Origin: an uncultured Clostridia bacterium
Lineage (GTDB): Bacteria > Bacillota > Clostridia > Oscillospirales > Ruminococcaceae
Direction: 5' to 3'
Length of the DNA stretch: 64,000 bases
Assembly (NCBI GenBank): GCA_947625155.1
Contig: CANQNG010000003.1
Location: 1 to 64,000, forward strand
How positions within the stretch are numbered: the first letter of the stretch is position 1; every line of letters begins with the position of its first letter. The position numbers and the translations under genes were made by a program. The notes beneath the pieces are model-generated. The model saw nothing but the letters and a program-made list of their open reading frames with translations. It ran no database searches and had not been told where the DNA came from. Below, one piece after another: positions 12,837-63,544 of this stretch.

Positions 12837-13709
12837 ATGGGCATGTATCGTTGTTTCAGTGGAAGAAGGCTGTTGTTCCTACTTTCTGTCGATGTTCTGC
12901 TTGTGGCATTGTGGCTGGTCTCCTCAGCGGTCGGAAAAGCTGTTTTCACGGATAAAGTACCGCCGGAAGGCATTTTTCTGCCCGTGGTGATGTATCACAG
13001 CATTTCGCCGCAGCCGCATGGCGATTATCAGATCACCCCCGAAGCCTTTGCGCAGGACTTGCAATACCTACAGGAAAACGGCTATGAGACTGTCAGCATC
13101 GAGCAGCTCCATGCCTACACAGAAGGTACAGGCACGCTCCCGGAACACCCGATCCTGCTGACATTTGACGACGGGTTTTACAACAATCTGTCCACCGCAC
13201 TGCCGCTTCTGGAGCAGTATGACATGTGTGCCGTAGTCTCGGTGGTGGGGTATTACACAGATGTGACCGCTGCCCGTGACCCGCACAGTGAACGGTATTC
13301 CTACCTGACATGGGAGGACATCCGGACATTGCAGGCATCCGGCAGGATAGAGATCGGCAGTCACACCTATGACCTGCACAGCAATGACGAACGGGCAGGC
13401 TGTTCCATTCTTTACGGGGAGGACGAGGAAGCCTATGCGGATATGCTCCGTAAAGATGTCGGCTTGCTCCAGACCCGGATGCGCAACGAGACCGGAACGA
13501 CCCCGACCGTCTTTGCCTACCCATATGGGTTCGTCTGCCGGGAAAGTGTACCGGTACTGCGGGAACTGGGATTTGTCTGCACGCTCACTTGTTACGAAAA
13601 GCCGAATTACATTACCCGTGACCCGGATTGTCTGTTCGGCCTGTTCCGGTACAACCGCAGCCCCGACTACACCACGGAAGCATTTTTCGCCAAGGCACTT
13701 ACACCATAG
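12837..13709 (+). CDS. Polysaccharide deacetylase family protein
   Basis: VVMYHSIS, LLTFDDGFYNN, EIGSHTYDLH, FAYPYG; NodB-type motifs. Confidence 0.9.
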   Translation: MGMYRCFSGRRLLFLLSVDVLLVALWLVSSAVGKAVFTDKVPPEGIFLPVVMYHSISPQPHGDYQITPEAFAQDLQYLQENGYETVSIEQLHAYTEGTGTLPEHPILLTFDDGFYNNLSTALPLLEQYDMCAVVSVVGYYTDVTAARDPHSERYSYLTWEDIRTLQASGRIEIGSHTYDLHSNDERAGCSILYGEDEEAYADMLRKDVGLLQTRMRNETGTTPTVFAYPYGFVCRESVPVLRELGFVCTLTCYEKPNYITRDPDCLFGLFRYNRSPDYTTEAFFAKALTP

Positions 13710-13804
13710 CGGCAGACTGCCGCCTCCGTTGTGCCTCCCACCGGCAGGCTGCCGCCTCCGTTGTGCCTCCCACCGGCAGGCTGCCGGCTCCGTGGTGCCT
13801 CCCA
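13709..13804. repeat. Three tandem 32-bp GC-rich palindromic units
   Basis: Units 13709-13740, 13741-13772, 13773-13804 (ccggcaggctgccgcctccgttgtgcctccca); each contains cggcag-n-ctgccg or a close variant. Confidence 0.9.
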
Positions 13805-14020
13805 ATGCGGCTGCGCCGCAAAGGTCGGCTTGCACGACTGACAGTGCAATTTAAGTCGGCTTGCCCGACTGCTGCTTTTATCTTATCTGGGAGCAGGACG
13901 AGGGGGCGCTTTTGGCAAAAAAGCGCCCCCTTCTTCCAATTATTAGGTACTATCCGCTCCGCCCTTGGGCGGAGCAGCATGAATGCACAAAATGACCGCA
14001 ATTTTTCCATTCCCTTATTA
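13709..14020. repeat. Mosaic hairpin repeat element, copy 1
   Basis: Tandem units, tgcggc-tgc-gccgca (13806-13820), gggggcgctttt hairpin (13902-13930), gctccgccc-tt-gggcggagc (13956-13975), tail atgcacaaaatgaccgcaattttt; modules recur near 57.2-57.67 kb. Confidence 0.85.
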
Positions 14021-14030
14021 AAAGCATCCC

Positions 14031-57196: not shown

Positions 57197-57675
57197 AGGC
57201 TCCGTTGTGCCTCCCAATGCCGGGCTATGCCCGGCAAAGGTCGGCTTGCTCGATTGCTACTTAATCTTAACTGAGAGCAGTCGCCCTTTGCGCCGAAGGT
57301 GCATTGGGCGACAAGACAAAAGTTTTTTGCTCCAGCTTTTTTTCAAAAAAGCTGGCGGGTGTCCAGAGGGCAGCGCCCTCTGGTCGCCGCCCGCAGGCGG
57401 CGAAACACTTCTATACTTCGCCATTTTCAGGGGTGAAGTCCAAAAACAGCATGGATGCTGTTTTTGGACGAGGGGGCACTTTTGGCAAAAAAGTGCCCCC
57501 TTCTTTCCTCTTATTTGAACTATCCTTTCCGCCCTTGGGCGGAGCAGCGTGACGCTGCACCCGTCCTGCCTCCCAATGCGGCTACGCCGCAAAGGTCGGC
57601 TTGCTTAACTGCTGCTTTTATCTTACCTGAAACAGAGTAGATGCACATAATAACCGCAATTTATTCACTCCCATA
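57197..57675. repeat. Mosaic hairpin repeat element, copy 2 (expanded)
   Basis: Shared modules with 13709..14020 plus additional perfect stem-loops at 57218-57236, 57280-57312, 57332-57355, 57363-57383, 57384-57403, 57438-57469, 57471-57501, 57529-57542, 57544-57558, 57577-57591. Confidence 0.88.
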
Positions 57676-57687
57676 TTTTCCCAGCGC

Positions 57688-57716
57688 TTGACAAGATCCT
57701 TTTTTTGTGGTAAGAT
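57688..57716 (+). promoter_or_regulatory. Promoter of the topoisomerase A gene, TTGACA-N17-TAAGAT
   Basis: -35 at 57688-57693, -10 at 57711-57716. Confidence 0.75.
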
Positions 57717-57768: not shown

Positions 57769-60003
57769 ATGCCAAGGAAAAAAGAACCCCCAAGACCCAA
57801 AAAACCAGCCATGGATGCATGGTTCGAGAACGAAGGCACTACGCAGGAGGAGGAGATCACCGACACCCTCGAAAAGAACTACCTCCCCTATGCAATGAGT
57901 GTCATCATTTCCCGTGCGCTTCCGGAGATCGATGGCTTCAAGCCCTCACACCGCAAGCTGCTCTACACCATGTACAAAATGGGCTTGCTCAACGGTCCAC
58001 GCACCAAGTCCGCCAACGTGGTAGGACAGACCATGCACCTGAACCCTCACGGCGATCAGGCGATCTATGAGACTATGGTGCGCCTGACACGCGCGAACGA
58101 ATGCCTTCTTCACCCCTACGTGGATTCCAAGGGAAATTTTGGTAAATATTACAGCCGGGATATGGCATTTGCCGCTGCCCGTTACACGGAAGTGAAGCTT
58201 GCCCCTATCTGTGAGGCATTATTCTCGGAGATCGACAAGGAAACGGTAGATTTTGTCCCAAATTACGACAATACCATGACTGAGCCAACGCTGCTCCCGG
58301 CAACGTTCCCGTCCGTTCTCGTCAACGCCAATATGGGTATCGCCGTCTCGATGGCAAGCAATATCTGCCCGTTTAACCTCGAAGAGCTGTGCAAAACGTG
58401 TATCAAGCTCATGGACGACCCGAAACACGACATTCTCTCTACCCTCAAAGGACCGGATTTCCCCGGCGGCGGCATTTTGCTCTATGACGAAGAGGAAATG
58501 CGCAAAGTCGTGGAGACCGGGCGGGGCAGCCTGAAACTTCGGGCAAAGTGGAATTACGACAAGGCAGCCCGCTGCATCGAGATCACGGAGATCCCCTACA
58601 CCACAACACTGGAGCAGATCAAGGACAAGATCACGGAACTTGCCAAAAACGGAAAGCTGCGTGAAGTCACCTATGCCCGTGATGAGATCGATGTGAACGG
58701 CTTCCGTCTTGCCATTGATGTGAAGCGGGACATCGACCCCGAAAAGCTGATGCAGAAACTGTTCCGTATGACACCTTTGCAGGATACGTTCGGCTGTAAT
58801 TTCAACATTCTGATCGGCAATATGCCACGGGTCATGGGTGTGCGGGAAATTCTGGAAGAATGGCTCTCTTTCCGCATGGAATGTGTCAAGCGCCGGGTAT
58901 TTTTCGACCTCAACAAAATGAAAGACCGCCTGCATCTGCTGCTCGGTCTGAAAAAGATCCTACTGGACATCGACAAGGCGATCGCGATCATCCGGGCTAC
59001 ACCCGAAGAGGTGCAGGTCGTTGCCAATTTGATGGACGGCTTTAGCATCGATGAGATCCAAGCGGAATATGTGGCAGAGATCAAGCTCCGTCACCTCAAC
59101 CGGGAGTACATCCTCAACAAACTTGCCGATGTGGACAAGCTGACGGAAGAGATCTCTGACATGGAGGATATTCTTGCCAAGCCGGGGCGCATCCGCACCA
59201 TTATCAAGGAGGAGCTGAAAGCTGCGGCTAAGAAATACGGTCAGCCCCGCCGGACGCTCATCATGGATGCCGTTGACGAAGAGCCTTACGTTCCGGAAGA
59301 TGATACACCGGATCATCCGGTACACATTTTCCTCTCCAAAGAGGGCTATTTCAAGAAGATCACGCCGCAAAGCCTGCGCATGAGCGGTGAGCAGAAAGTC
59401 AAGGACGGCGACAGTCTTATTCTCCAGCTCGATGTCACGAATAAGACCGAGCTGCTGTTCTTTACGGATAAGGCGCAGGTCTACAAGGCAAGGGCAAGTC
59501 AGTTTGAGGATTCCAAGGCAAGTTTGCTGGGCGACTTTATCCCGGTCAAGCTTGAATTTGAGGAAAATGAACATCTAGTCGCCATGCTGCCTGCCGGGGA
59601 CTACACCGGTTCGCTGCTGTTCGTCTTTGAAAACGGCAAGATCGCCCGTGTGCCGCTTTCTGCCTACACGACCAAGACAAACCGGAAACGCCTGACGAAC
59701 GCCTTTTCTGACAGATCCCCGCTTGTCAAGCTGTTCCACATTGCGGAAGATGTTCCCCTGCTGCTTCGCTCTTCCGGAAATCGTGCGATCCTTGTGCAGA
59801 CCGGTCAGATCCCGGAGAAATCCACACGCACTTCTCAGGGCGTACAGGTCATGACTTTGAAGGCAAAGCAGACCGTCACCTCTGCGGAACTCCCCACCGG
59901 AGAACGGCTCGCACAGGTGGAGACCTTTGCAGCCCCGAACATTCCGGCTGCCGGAAAGCTGGCAAAAGACCTCGAAGATGCCGGACAAATTTCACTGATC
60001 TAA
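57769..60003 (+). CDS. DNA topoisomerase (ATP-hydrolysing) subunit A, gyrA/parC family
   Basis: LPYAMSVIISRALPEIDGFKPSHRKLLYTMYKMG; NPHGDQAIYETMVRLT; RYTEVKL active-site region. Confidence 0.92.
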   Translation: MPRKKEPPRPKKPAMDAWFENEGTTQEEEITDTLEKNYLPYAMSVIISRALPEIDGFKPSHRKLLYTMYKMGLLNGPRTKSANVVGQTMHLNPHGDQAIYETMVRLTRANECLLHPYVDSKGNFGKYYSRDMAFAAARYTEVKLAPICEALFSEIDKETVDFVPNYDNTMTEPTLLPATFPSVLVNANMGIAVSMASNICPFNLEELCKTCIKLMDDPKHDILSTLKGPDFPGGGILLYDEEEMRKVVETGRGSLKLRAKWNYDKAARCIEITEIPYTTTLEQIKDKITELAKNGKLREVTYARDEIDVNGFRLAIDVKRDIDPEKLMQKLFRMTPLQDTFGCNFNILIGNMPRVMGVREILEEWLSFRMECVKRRVFFDLNKMKDRLHLLLGLKKILLDIDKAIAIIRATPEEVQVVANLMDGFSIDEIQAEYVAEIKLRHLNREYILNKLADVDKLTEEISDMEDILAKPGRIRTIIKEELKAAAKKYGQPRRTLIMDAVDEEPYVPEDDTPDHPVHIFLSKEGYFKKITPQSLRMSGEQKVKDGDSLILQLDVTNKTELLFFTDKAQVYKARASQFEDSKASLLGDFIPVKLEFEENEHLVAMLPAGDYTGSLLFVFENGKIARVPLSAYTTKTNRKRLTNAFSDRSPLVKLFHIAEDVPLLLRSSGNRAILVQTGQIPEKSTRTSQGVQVMTLKAKQTVTSAELPTGERLAQVETFAAPNIPAAGKLAKDLEDAGQISLI

Positions 60004-62125: not shown

Positions 62126-63544
62126 TTATGCCTCAGGAGCAGACAGGTCGGTGTTCTTGGATGTAGCATCAGCCACGAAGTCAGCGATGACAGTGTCAAC
62201 ATCTTTGGACTCGATCTCATCCTTCAGTGTGTTCAGGAAGCTATCCTTCAGGCTCTGGTCATACTTGGAGATGGAGTCGCTCATGTTGATGCCATCAGCA
62301 ACTTCCGTCAGTACAGCGAACTGATCCTGACCGCCCAGCAGCGGGTTGGAGTTGGACTTTTCTTCCACGATCTCAGCCATAGCAACCTTGTTGTTTACAA
62401 AGTCGCCGGAGCTCAGAGCGTATTCCTTCATAGTATCCTTGTTTACAGTGAAGTATCTGATGAAGTCAGCAGCAGTAGCCTTGGTGTTGATGGTCTTTGC
62501 AACGCAGAGCCAAGAACCGCCCCAGAAGTATTCCTGCGGACCTACAACGATGTTCCAGTTACCTTCTGTACCGCAGTTACCCTCGAGCTGTGCACCCTGA
62601 GTCAGGCACCATGTGGAGAAGAAGTAGCCGAGGCACTTACCGTCTACACCGTAGTTGAACCAGTCGCCATCCCACTGTGCAATAGCAGGATTTACATAAC
62701 CGTTGTCAACATACTTCTTTGCCATCTCAGCAAAGTCCCTAGCGGTAGCAGTGTTGATCACGCCATCCTCTACCCATGCACTGTCGATAGCGGTGGAGTA
62801 GCACTGCCACATACCGCCCAGAGAGCAGGTCATGTATACATCGCCGCCAGTAGCATCCTTCAGCTTGCCAGCAGTCTCCTCGAACTTATCCCAGTCAGCA
62901 ACAGCTGCCTGCATATCCTCAGGTGTCTCGATACCGAGCTGCTCCTTAGCAATGTCGGTATTGTAAGCCCAGCCGCCTGCTGCTGCCTGCCAAGAGCAGC
63001 CCATCAGGTCGCCGTTCTCGTTGGTAGCAACGTCTACGGTGTACTGATAAGCGTCCTTGTAGTCATCCTTGGTGAGACCCAGCTCGGAAACCGGCAGAGC
63101 ATACTCATCGGTGATGTAGTTCAGGATCCAGCCAGCTTCTGCAACGAACAGGTCGATGTCCTTACCGGAGCCCAGGAATGTTGCATACTCAGTGGAAGCA
63201 GAAGTACCGTCTGTACCGGACTGTTCCCACTTTACGTTCTCGTTGCCGTACATATCCATCATCGGACCGAGGTCGTTGTTGTTCCAGCAAACGATGGTCA
63301 GTGTAGGATCGTCATCGGTCAGGTCAACGGAAGGTGTCTCCTCGCCAGAGCTTTCCTCATCGGAACTCTCATCTGCGGAGCTCTCATCTGCGGAGCTCTC
63401 ATCTGCGGAACTTTCATCAGCGGAACTCTCGGTAGCGGAACTGCTGTCGTTGCTGGACTCGCTGCCACCATTACAAGCTGTGAATGCAGTAGCAGACATA
63501 GCCAGAACAGCGAGCAGAGCCAGTGTTCTTGTCAATTTGCTCAT
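62126..63544 (-). CDS. Extracellular carbohydrate-binding lipoprotein
   Basis: AMSATAFTAC lipobox, Ser/Asp/Glu repeat linker, family 1 SBP-like body. Confidence 0.92.
   Translation of the reverse strand: MSKLTRTLALLAVLAMSATAFTACNGGSESSNDSSSATESSADESSADESSADESSADESSDEESSGEETPSVDLTDDDPTLTIVCWNNNDLGPMMDMYGNENVKWEQSGTDGTSASTEYATFLGSGKDIDLFVAEAGWILNYITDEYALPVSELGLTKDDYKDAYQYTVDVATNENGDLMGCSWQAAAGGWAYNTDIAKEQLGIETPEDMQAAVADWDKFEETAGKLKDATGGDVYMTCSLGGMWQCYSTAIDSAWVEDGVINTATARDFAEMAKKYVDNGYVNPAIAQWDGDWFNYGVDGKCLGYFFSTWCLTQGAQLEGNCGTEGNWNIVVGPQEYFWGGSWLCVAKTINTKATAADFIRYFTVNKDTMKEYALSSGDFVNNKVAMAEIVEEKSNSNPLLGGQDQFAVLTEVADGINMSDSISKYDQSLKDSFLNTLKDEIESKDVDTVIADFVADATSKNTDLSAPEA
63366..63440. repeat. 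Five 15-bp tandem units encoding ESSAD-type pentapeptides
   Basis: ctctcatctgcggag and variants at 63366, 63381, 63396, 63411, 63426. Confidence 0.9.

Follow-up and report, generated by a model that had tools for sequence, protein, structure and literature searches.

Hairpin copies at the locus

The window analysed here, a 64,000-nt stretch of a contig from an uncultured Clostridia bacterium, contains two copies of a hairpin, designated h6, the first of which lies between two convergent genes. Copy 1 reads GGGGGCGCTTTT-GGCAA-AAAAGCGCCCCC at 13902-13930 and is the G-C variant, as originally predicted. The predicted sequence of copy 2, GGGGGCACTTTT-GGCAA-AAAAGTGCCCCC, was likewise recovered, although its bounds had been set one base too far out at either end (57471-57501 for a true 57472-57500). 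A G-C to A-T exchange at stem position 7 is indeed the sole difference between the two copies over 29 nt, and dinucleotide shuffles gave a mean of 0.00 chance matches to this 29-nt hairpin at 3 mismatches. The block common to both copies exceeds the hairpin, extending over 87 nt at 84 % identity (GGACGA, the hairpin, TTCTT and a second hairpin, CCGCCCTTGGGCGG), and this second hairpin, h7, displays more compensatory change than the reported h6 pair. The upstream GACGA, described as part of the conserved flanks, matches between copies 1 and 2, but a printout of the flanks of all copies showed it replaced by different sequence at many others, wherever another module precedes the hairpin.

Hairpin h6 is not itself the unit but belongs to a mobile element with about seven hairpins (Table 1). 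All seven, h1 to h7, are present in the copy 2 region (57332-57544), which folds as single-stranded DNA with z = -11.3. The flanks of h6 copies form a mosaic, with either module A or a hairpin run ending in h5 usually found upstream and h7 nearly always downstream, while versions from sister species, obtained with a covariance model, retain the hairpin order and differ in most stem sequences. Neither window copy is intact from one terminal inverted repeat (TIR) to the other, copy 1 because its upstream module differs and its 3′ end is degenerate, copy 2 because only a 3′ TIR was found. Terminator scoring flagged h6 at copy 2 and not at copy 1, with terminator finds overall close to shuffle expectation.

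Table 1 Features of the two cassette copies in the window (G009, a close relative)
Feature	Position	Strand	Evidence
Module A, CCTCCCAATGCGGC..GCCGCAAAGGTCGGCTTGC..TTTTATCTTA, the alternative module common upstream of h6	13790..13889	+	repeat search, flank printout
Hairpin h6, copy 1, G-C variant	13902..13930	+	direct sequence, copy search
Hairpin h7, copy 1, GCTCCGCCC-TT-GGGCGGAGC	13956..13975	+	sequence; covariation
Degenerate 3′ terminal repeat, copy 1, TTTTTCCATTCCC for TTTATCCACTCCC	14002..14014	+	weak, at least 2 mismatches
Stretch missing at the orthologous G009 site; contains module A, h6, h7	13704..14027	+	comparison with G009
Hairpin h1, copy 2, CCAGCTTTTTTTCAAAAAAGCTGG	57332..57355	+	sequence, DNA folding
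Hairpin h2, copy 2, CCAGAGGGCAGCGCCCTCTGG	57363..57383	+	sequence, alignment, DNA folding
Hairpin h3, copy 2, TCGCCGCC-CGCA-GGCGGCGA, Watson-Crick-only covariation across species	57384..57403	+	alignment, pair counts, DNA folding
Weak hairpin h4, copy 2, CTTCGCC..GGGGTGAAG region	57415..57440 (approximate bounds)	+	alignment, DNA folding
Hairpin h5, copy 2, GTCCAAAAACAGCATGGATGCTGTTTTTGGAC, bidirectional intrinsic terminator shape	57438..57469	+	alignment, DNA folding; terminator reading by eye
Hairpin h6, copy 2, A-T variant, scored terminator-like on the + strand	57472..57500	+	direct sequence, terminator scoring
Hairpin h7, copy 2, core CCGCCCTTGGGCGG	57527..57544	+	sequence, covariation, DNA folding
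3′ terminal inverted repeat, copy 2, matching the reverse complement of GGGAGTGAATAAA with one mismatch	57660..57672	+	TIR search

Several other features were recorded. Just past the 3′ TIR of copy 2 is a promoter-like site (57688-57716; TTGACA-17-TAAGAT, extended TG), followed downstream by a 744-aa ORF at 57769 that resembles type II topoisomerase subunit A. A 36-nt motif occurs at seven places between 441 and 44700 of the window (repeat family D1), its reverse complement resembling a sigma-70 promoter (TTGACAAATGCGGGAGAATGTGCTATACTATT), and a short array of tandem 15-nt repeats (TCTCATCTGCGGAGC; repeat family D5) occupies 63337-63426. IS3-family-like element ends (TGAA..GTTAGACAA inverted repeats) abut the cassette at L010, L011, L013 and L080 of this genome and at L096 and L097 of genome G002, in two species and several times at the T-run of h5, with orfA/orfB present in L096, which suggests that an IS3-family-like element inserts recurrently into the hairpin array. 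At L005 (C15:7846) the downstream flank of h6 is found inverted on both sides, as if the hairpin were a point of inversion or fusion.

Distribution of the hairpin and the cassette

The genome searched (1.96 Mb, 38 contigs, 86.5 % complete) contains 19 copies of h6 within 3 mismatches, every one with at most 1 mismatch, compared with 0 for a reversed control. Close copies were found in 3 of the 36 other species of the genus searched, numbering 9, 2 and 1, and a search of 24 other genera of the order gave no such copy. The named records found to carry h6 are all metagenome-assembled genomes (MAGs) from uncultured Clostridia, their samples labelled 'Lapin'. A cassette model spanning h3-h6 matched 15 of 38 genomes of the genus and, across the order, 28 of 247 genomes in a patchy distribution over 22 of 127 genera and several families, often with at least 14 copies per genome. 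The stronger of these matches display a common architecture in their sequences; the weakest (E near 1e-5) were only partly checked and some are doubtful. As the genomes are fragmented MAGs with many copies at contig ends, all copy counts are lower bounds. By rough ORF calls the copies lie mostly downstream of genes. The exact hairpin was absent from viral contigs and no cassette was found in plasmids, while phages gave two partial, unannotated matches of about 80 % identity.

Mobility in the window species and a close relative

The end sequence GGGAGTGGATAAA occurs exactly 13 times in the genome (control 0), and paired GGGAGTGGATAAA ends bound elements of 282-472 bp with 8-bp flanking duplications, namely AGATCTCT (contig C1), CCTAAAAA (C18) and TCCGGGCAG (C11). 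An intact h1-h7 element of 335 bp at C8:27998 has the degenerate duplication ATGCGRT, and one element in the close relative G009 has TCTTTATT on both sides. In having TIRs and target-site duplications these short non-coding elements, of 282-472 bp here and 287-362 bp in the sister species, are like MITEs. Genome searches returned no transposase with the TIR GGGAGTGGATAAA, and the duplications in this genome are of 8 bp without a palindrome, no copy showing a duplicated stem-loop. With its GGGAGTGGATAAA TIR and non-palindromic 8-bp duplications, this genome's form lacks the TIRs and stem-loop target that would mark an IS1182-family derivative.

The copy 1 insertion is missing from G009, where flanks of 93-95 % identity enclose about 50 bp in place of 324 bp (13704-14027) and a plain terminator-like hairpin lies between the same two convergent genes. 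The sites C8:19962, directly after a terminator T-run, and C8:23364, where the insertion interrupts a terminator-like palindrome, are also empty in G009. Because one or both ends are not clean TIRs, these sites show gain or replacement of the array as opposed to textbook insertion, and the copy 1 site differs in contents with no clean cut at a duplicated target. At L124 and L131 the flanks fall on different G009 contigs, so that no clean empty site could be demonstrated there. Taken together, the elements end in TIRs with target duplications and some insertions are missing from the close relative, the best-supported view being of a MITE-like element family built around one old hairpin cassette.

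IS1182-type ends in the sister species

Different ends, TCAGTCTGTCRAAAAA..TTTWTYGACARRCTGA, bound the cassette in the sister species. Among 10 intact elements (287-362 bp), 7 have the same palindromic, terminator-like stem-loop stretch of 16-28 nt on both sides, compared with a maximum common stretch of 8 nt when left and right flanks were swapped. The duplicated palindromes differ from site to site and lie at the element edge or a few bases off; the remaining 3 of 10 lack a full duplication. Two elements of the genus, L112 and L115, have closely similar ends; they encode an IS1182-family transposase and are themselves flanked by duplicated palindromes of 29 and 31 nt. The L115 transposase scores 357 bits against NF033551 (cut-off 270) and has DUF772 and DDE domains, while the L112 frame is split into two ORFs. 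The TIRs of L115, TCAGCCTGTCRAAAAA, compare with the sister-cassette TIR TCAGTCTGTCRAAAAA, which makes the ends of the sister form IS1182-like. The flanks indicate a target chosen by stem-loop, as has been reported for IS1272 (PMC5678879), with duplication in place of replacement. The window's own genome also contains an IS1182-like remnant with the TIR TCAGCCTGTCAAAAAA beside a palindrome (L118 / L165, G000:C24).

Compensatory change in the stems

Compensatory base changes are the usual grounds for inferring a functional RNA structure. A single pair compared between two copies is insufficient as proof, since one double change spread by copying looks identical. A covariation analysis of many copies, run with shuffle and slide controls in place of R-scape, found the stems preserved. 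In 29 close aligned copies h6 is 98.9 % paired, the reported pair being A-U (A-T) in 23 and G-C in 6 with 0 intermediates, and h7 has double changes at four pairs in the same copies. Across the genus (29 elements, eleven species) compensatory double changes affect 25 of the 49 cassette pairs. Compensatory cells number 165 against 48.5 in shuffles (0 of 500 as high) and stems are 97.8 % paired against 48-58 % with partners slid, with the proviso that both controls leave some relatedness and that what was counted is sequences, which need not be independent events. The stems are preserved through compensatory change. This genus-wide covariation supports the original prediction of selection on the folded structure, or of a copying mechanism preserving it, without separating the two.

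The character of the changes is most apparent in h3, where the loop gives the strand: over 62 distinct contexts 245 of 248 variable pairs are Watson-Crick, with G-U 0 and A-C 1, and all four pair types occur at one position. Single changes in h6 comprise 3 G-U and 4 A-C. Hairpin-anchored counts replaced those for h2, h4 and h6 from alignment A3, which were set aside as their arms were out of register; in the anchored counts h5 and the TTGCAA-loop copies of h6 match both strands so that strand asymmetry cannot show there. The pattern favours upkeep of a DNA palindrome because selection at the RNA level would tolerate G-U over A-C, and the near absence of G-U in h3 thus favours a DNA-level cause. 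Template switching is a described route by which palindrome arms are kept complementary (PMC8794818); inverted h3 loops, a possible trace of it, numbered 0 of 37, although switching confined to the arms would escape this count.

These counts bear directly on the alternative that the cassette functions as a structured RNA or as a terminator/attenuator, its hairpins selected at the RNA level and its dispersal secondary. Conservation of the architecture over the order, the location of most copies downstream of genes, the terminator-like score of h6 at copy 2 and the bidirectional terminator shape of h5 would all fit such a role. However, besides the absence of G-U from h3 and its failure to outnumber A-C in h6, terminator finds stay near shuffle expectation, no Rfam family was matched (Rfam 15 returned only a tRNA for the window and at best 27 bits, far below cut-off, for the sister loci), and the TIRs and target duplications show mobility. 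We regard an RNA-level explanation as unlikely.

The distribution of the h6 variants bears on a second alternative, namely that there is no ongoing structural constraint and that the G-C and A-T forms descend from two old founders, each copied many times, so that the exchange happened only once. The copies are related, the pair is only A-T or G-C in close copies (23:6) and the G033 copies are all A-T. Yet each variant is found with either upstream module and with either downstream flank type, and with no linkage of variant to upstream module seen among the few copies available (Fisher p = 0.61) the variant has therefore been shuffled or has recurred; double changes also occur at many other pairs, in several helices and across species. 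As an account of the cassette, descent from two founders is quite improbable, though for this single h6 pair it may still be right. A REP/BIME-like origin, in which a domesticated TnpA-REP (RAYT) transposase would spread single palindromes and the mosaic would correspond to a BIME, is highly improbable. The cassette shares with REP/BIME and TnpA-REP systems its many intergenic palindromes in mosaics, but has no GTAG tetranucleotide beside the palindrome (its flanks are GACGA/TTCTT or other module ends) and is bounded by TIRs with target duplications (PMC8266576).

A probable mobile cassette of DNA palindromes

We favour, with a probability of roughly 0.7, the reading that the hairpin stands sixth in a series of about seven that makes up a non-coding, MITE-like cassette of ~300 nt, which spreads intergenically and whose stems are kept paired at the DNA level. 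The cassette would spread as a non-autonomous element whose intergenic insertion sites are mostly gene 3′ ends and transcription terminators. Common ends and target habit suggest that the sister-species elements are moved in trans by an IS1182 transposase; for the form in this genome some other transposase would be responsible. By insulating the neighbours, the terminator-like hairpins within the element may render insertion beside genes harmless. The most likely level for both the origin and the persistence of the compensatory changes is that of DNA, with each arm kept the exact complement of the other, candidate causes being arm-to-arm template switching or selection for the DNA palindrome. 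The reported G-C/A-T exchange would be an example, and its present occurrence with both flank types would result from recombination or recurrence.

A wider extension, which we put forward only tentatively, is that the order-wide cassette is a portable, self-insulating cargo common to two or more transposition systems, including an IS1182-like one with duplication of whole terminators and another with 8-bp duplications, and that its palindromes are kept perfect at the DNA level by structure-dependent transposition or arm-to-arm copying, so that covariation would mark DNA and not RNA. Hairpin h3 offers an abundant natural case of one helix with Watson-Crick-only covariation and all four pair types that appears better explained at the DNA level. 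The cassette accordingly calls for care in RNA discovery based on covariation, and models of template switching or structure-dependent transposition could be tested on it. Duplication of a terminator stem-loop would offer a simple reason for insertion beside genes without breaking termination.

Comparison with known systems

Palindromic candidate structured RNAs from the human microbiome resemble the cassette in having motifs on both strands, most of them predicted terminators, and the main text of that study does not describe the cassette (PMC8040213). IS1272, of the IS1182 family, replaces its target stem-loop and leaves no duplication, stem-loop duplication being drawn as an alternative pathway only in the published model (PMC5678879). 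The sister elements are like IS1272 in their closely similar TIRs and in sites that are stem-loops of unrelated sequence; unlike IS1272 they have the stem-loop on both sides, so that the same terminator stem-loop flanking IS1182-type elements is an arrangement allowed by that model and not observed there with IS1272 (PMC5678879). The elements described here are also ~290 nt, non-coding and hairpin-filled, and those of the window species have other TIRs and 8-bp duplications. As short non-coding intergenic repeats with TIRs, target duplications, clustering, nesting and, in some cases, terminator-like hairpins they are similar to bacterial MITEs and to the pneumococcal BOX, RUP and SPRITE elements, but unlike BOX, RUP and SPRITE they comprise one seven-hairpin cassette common to many genera and associated with two types of TIR and target duplication (PMC10969869).
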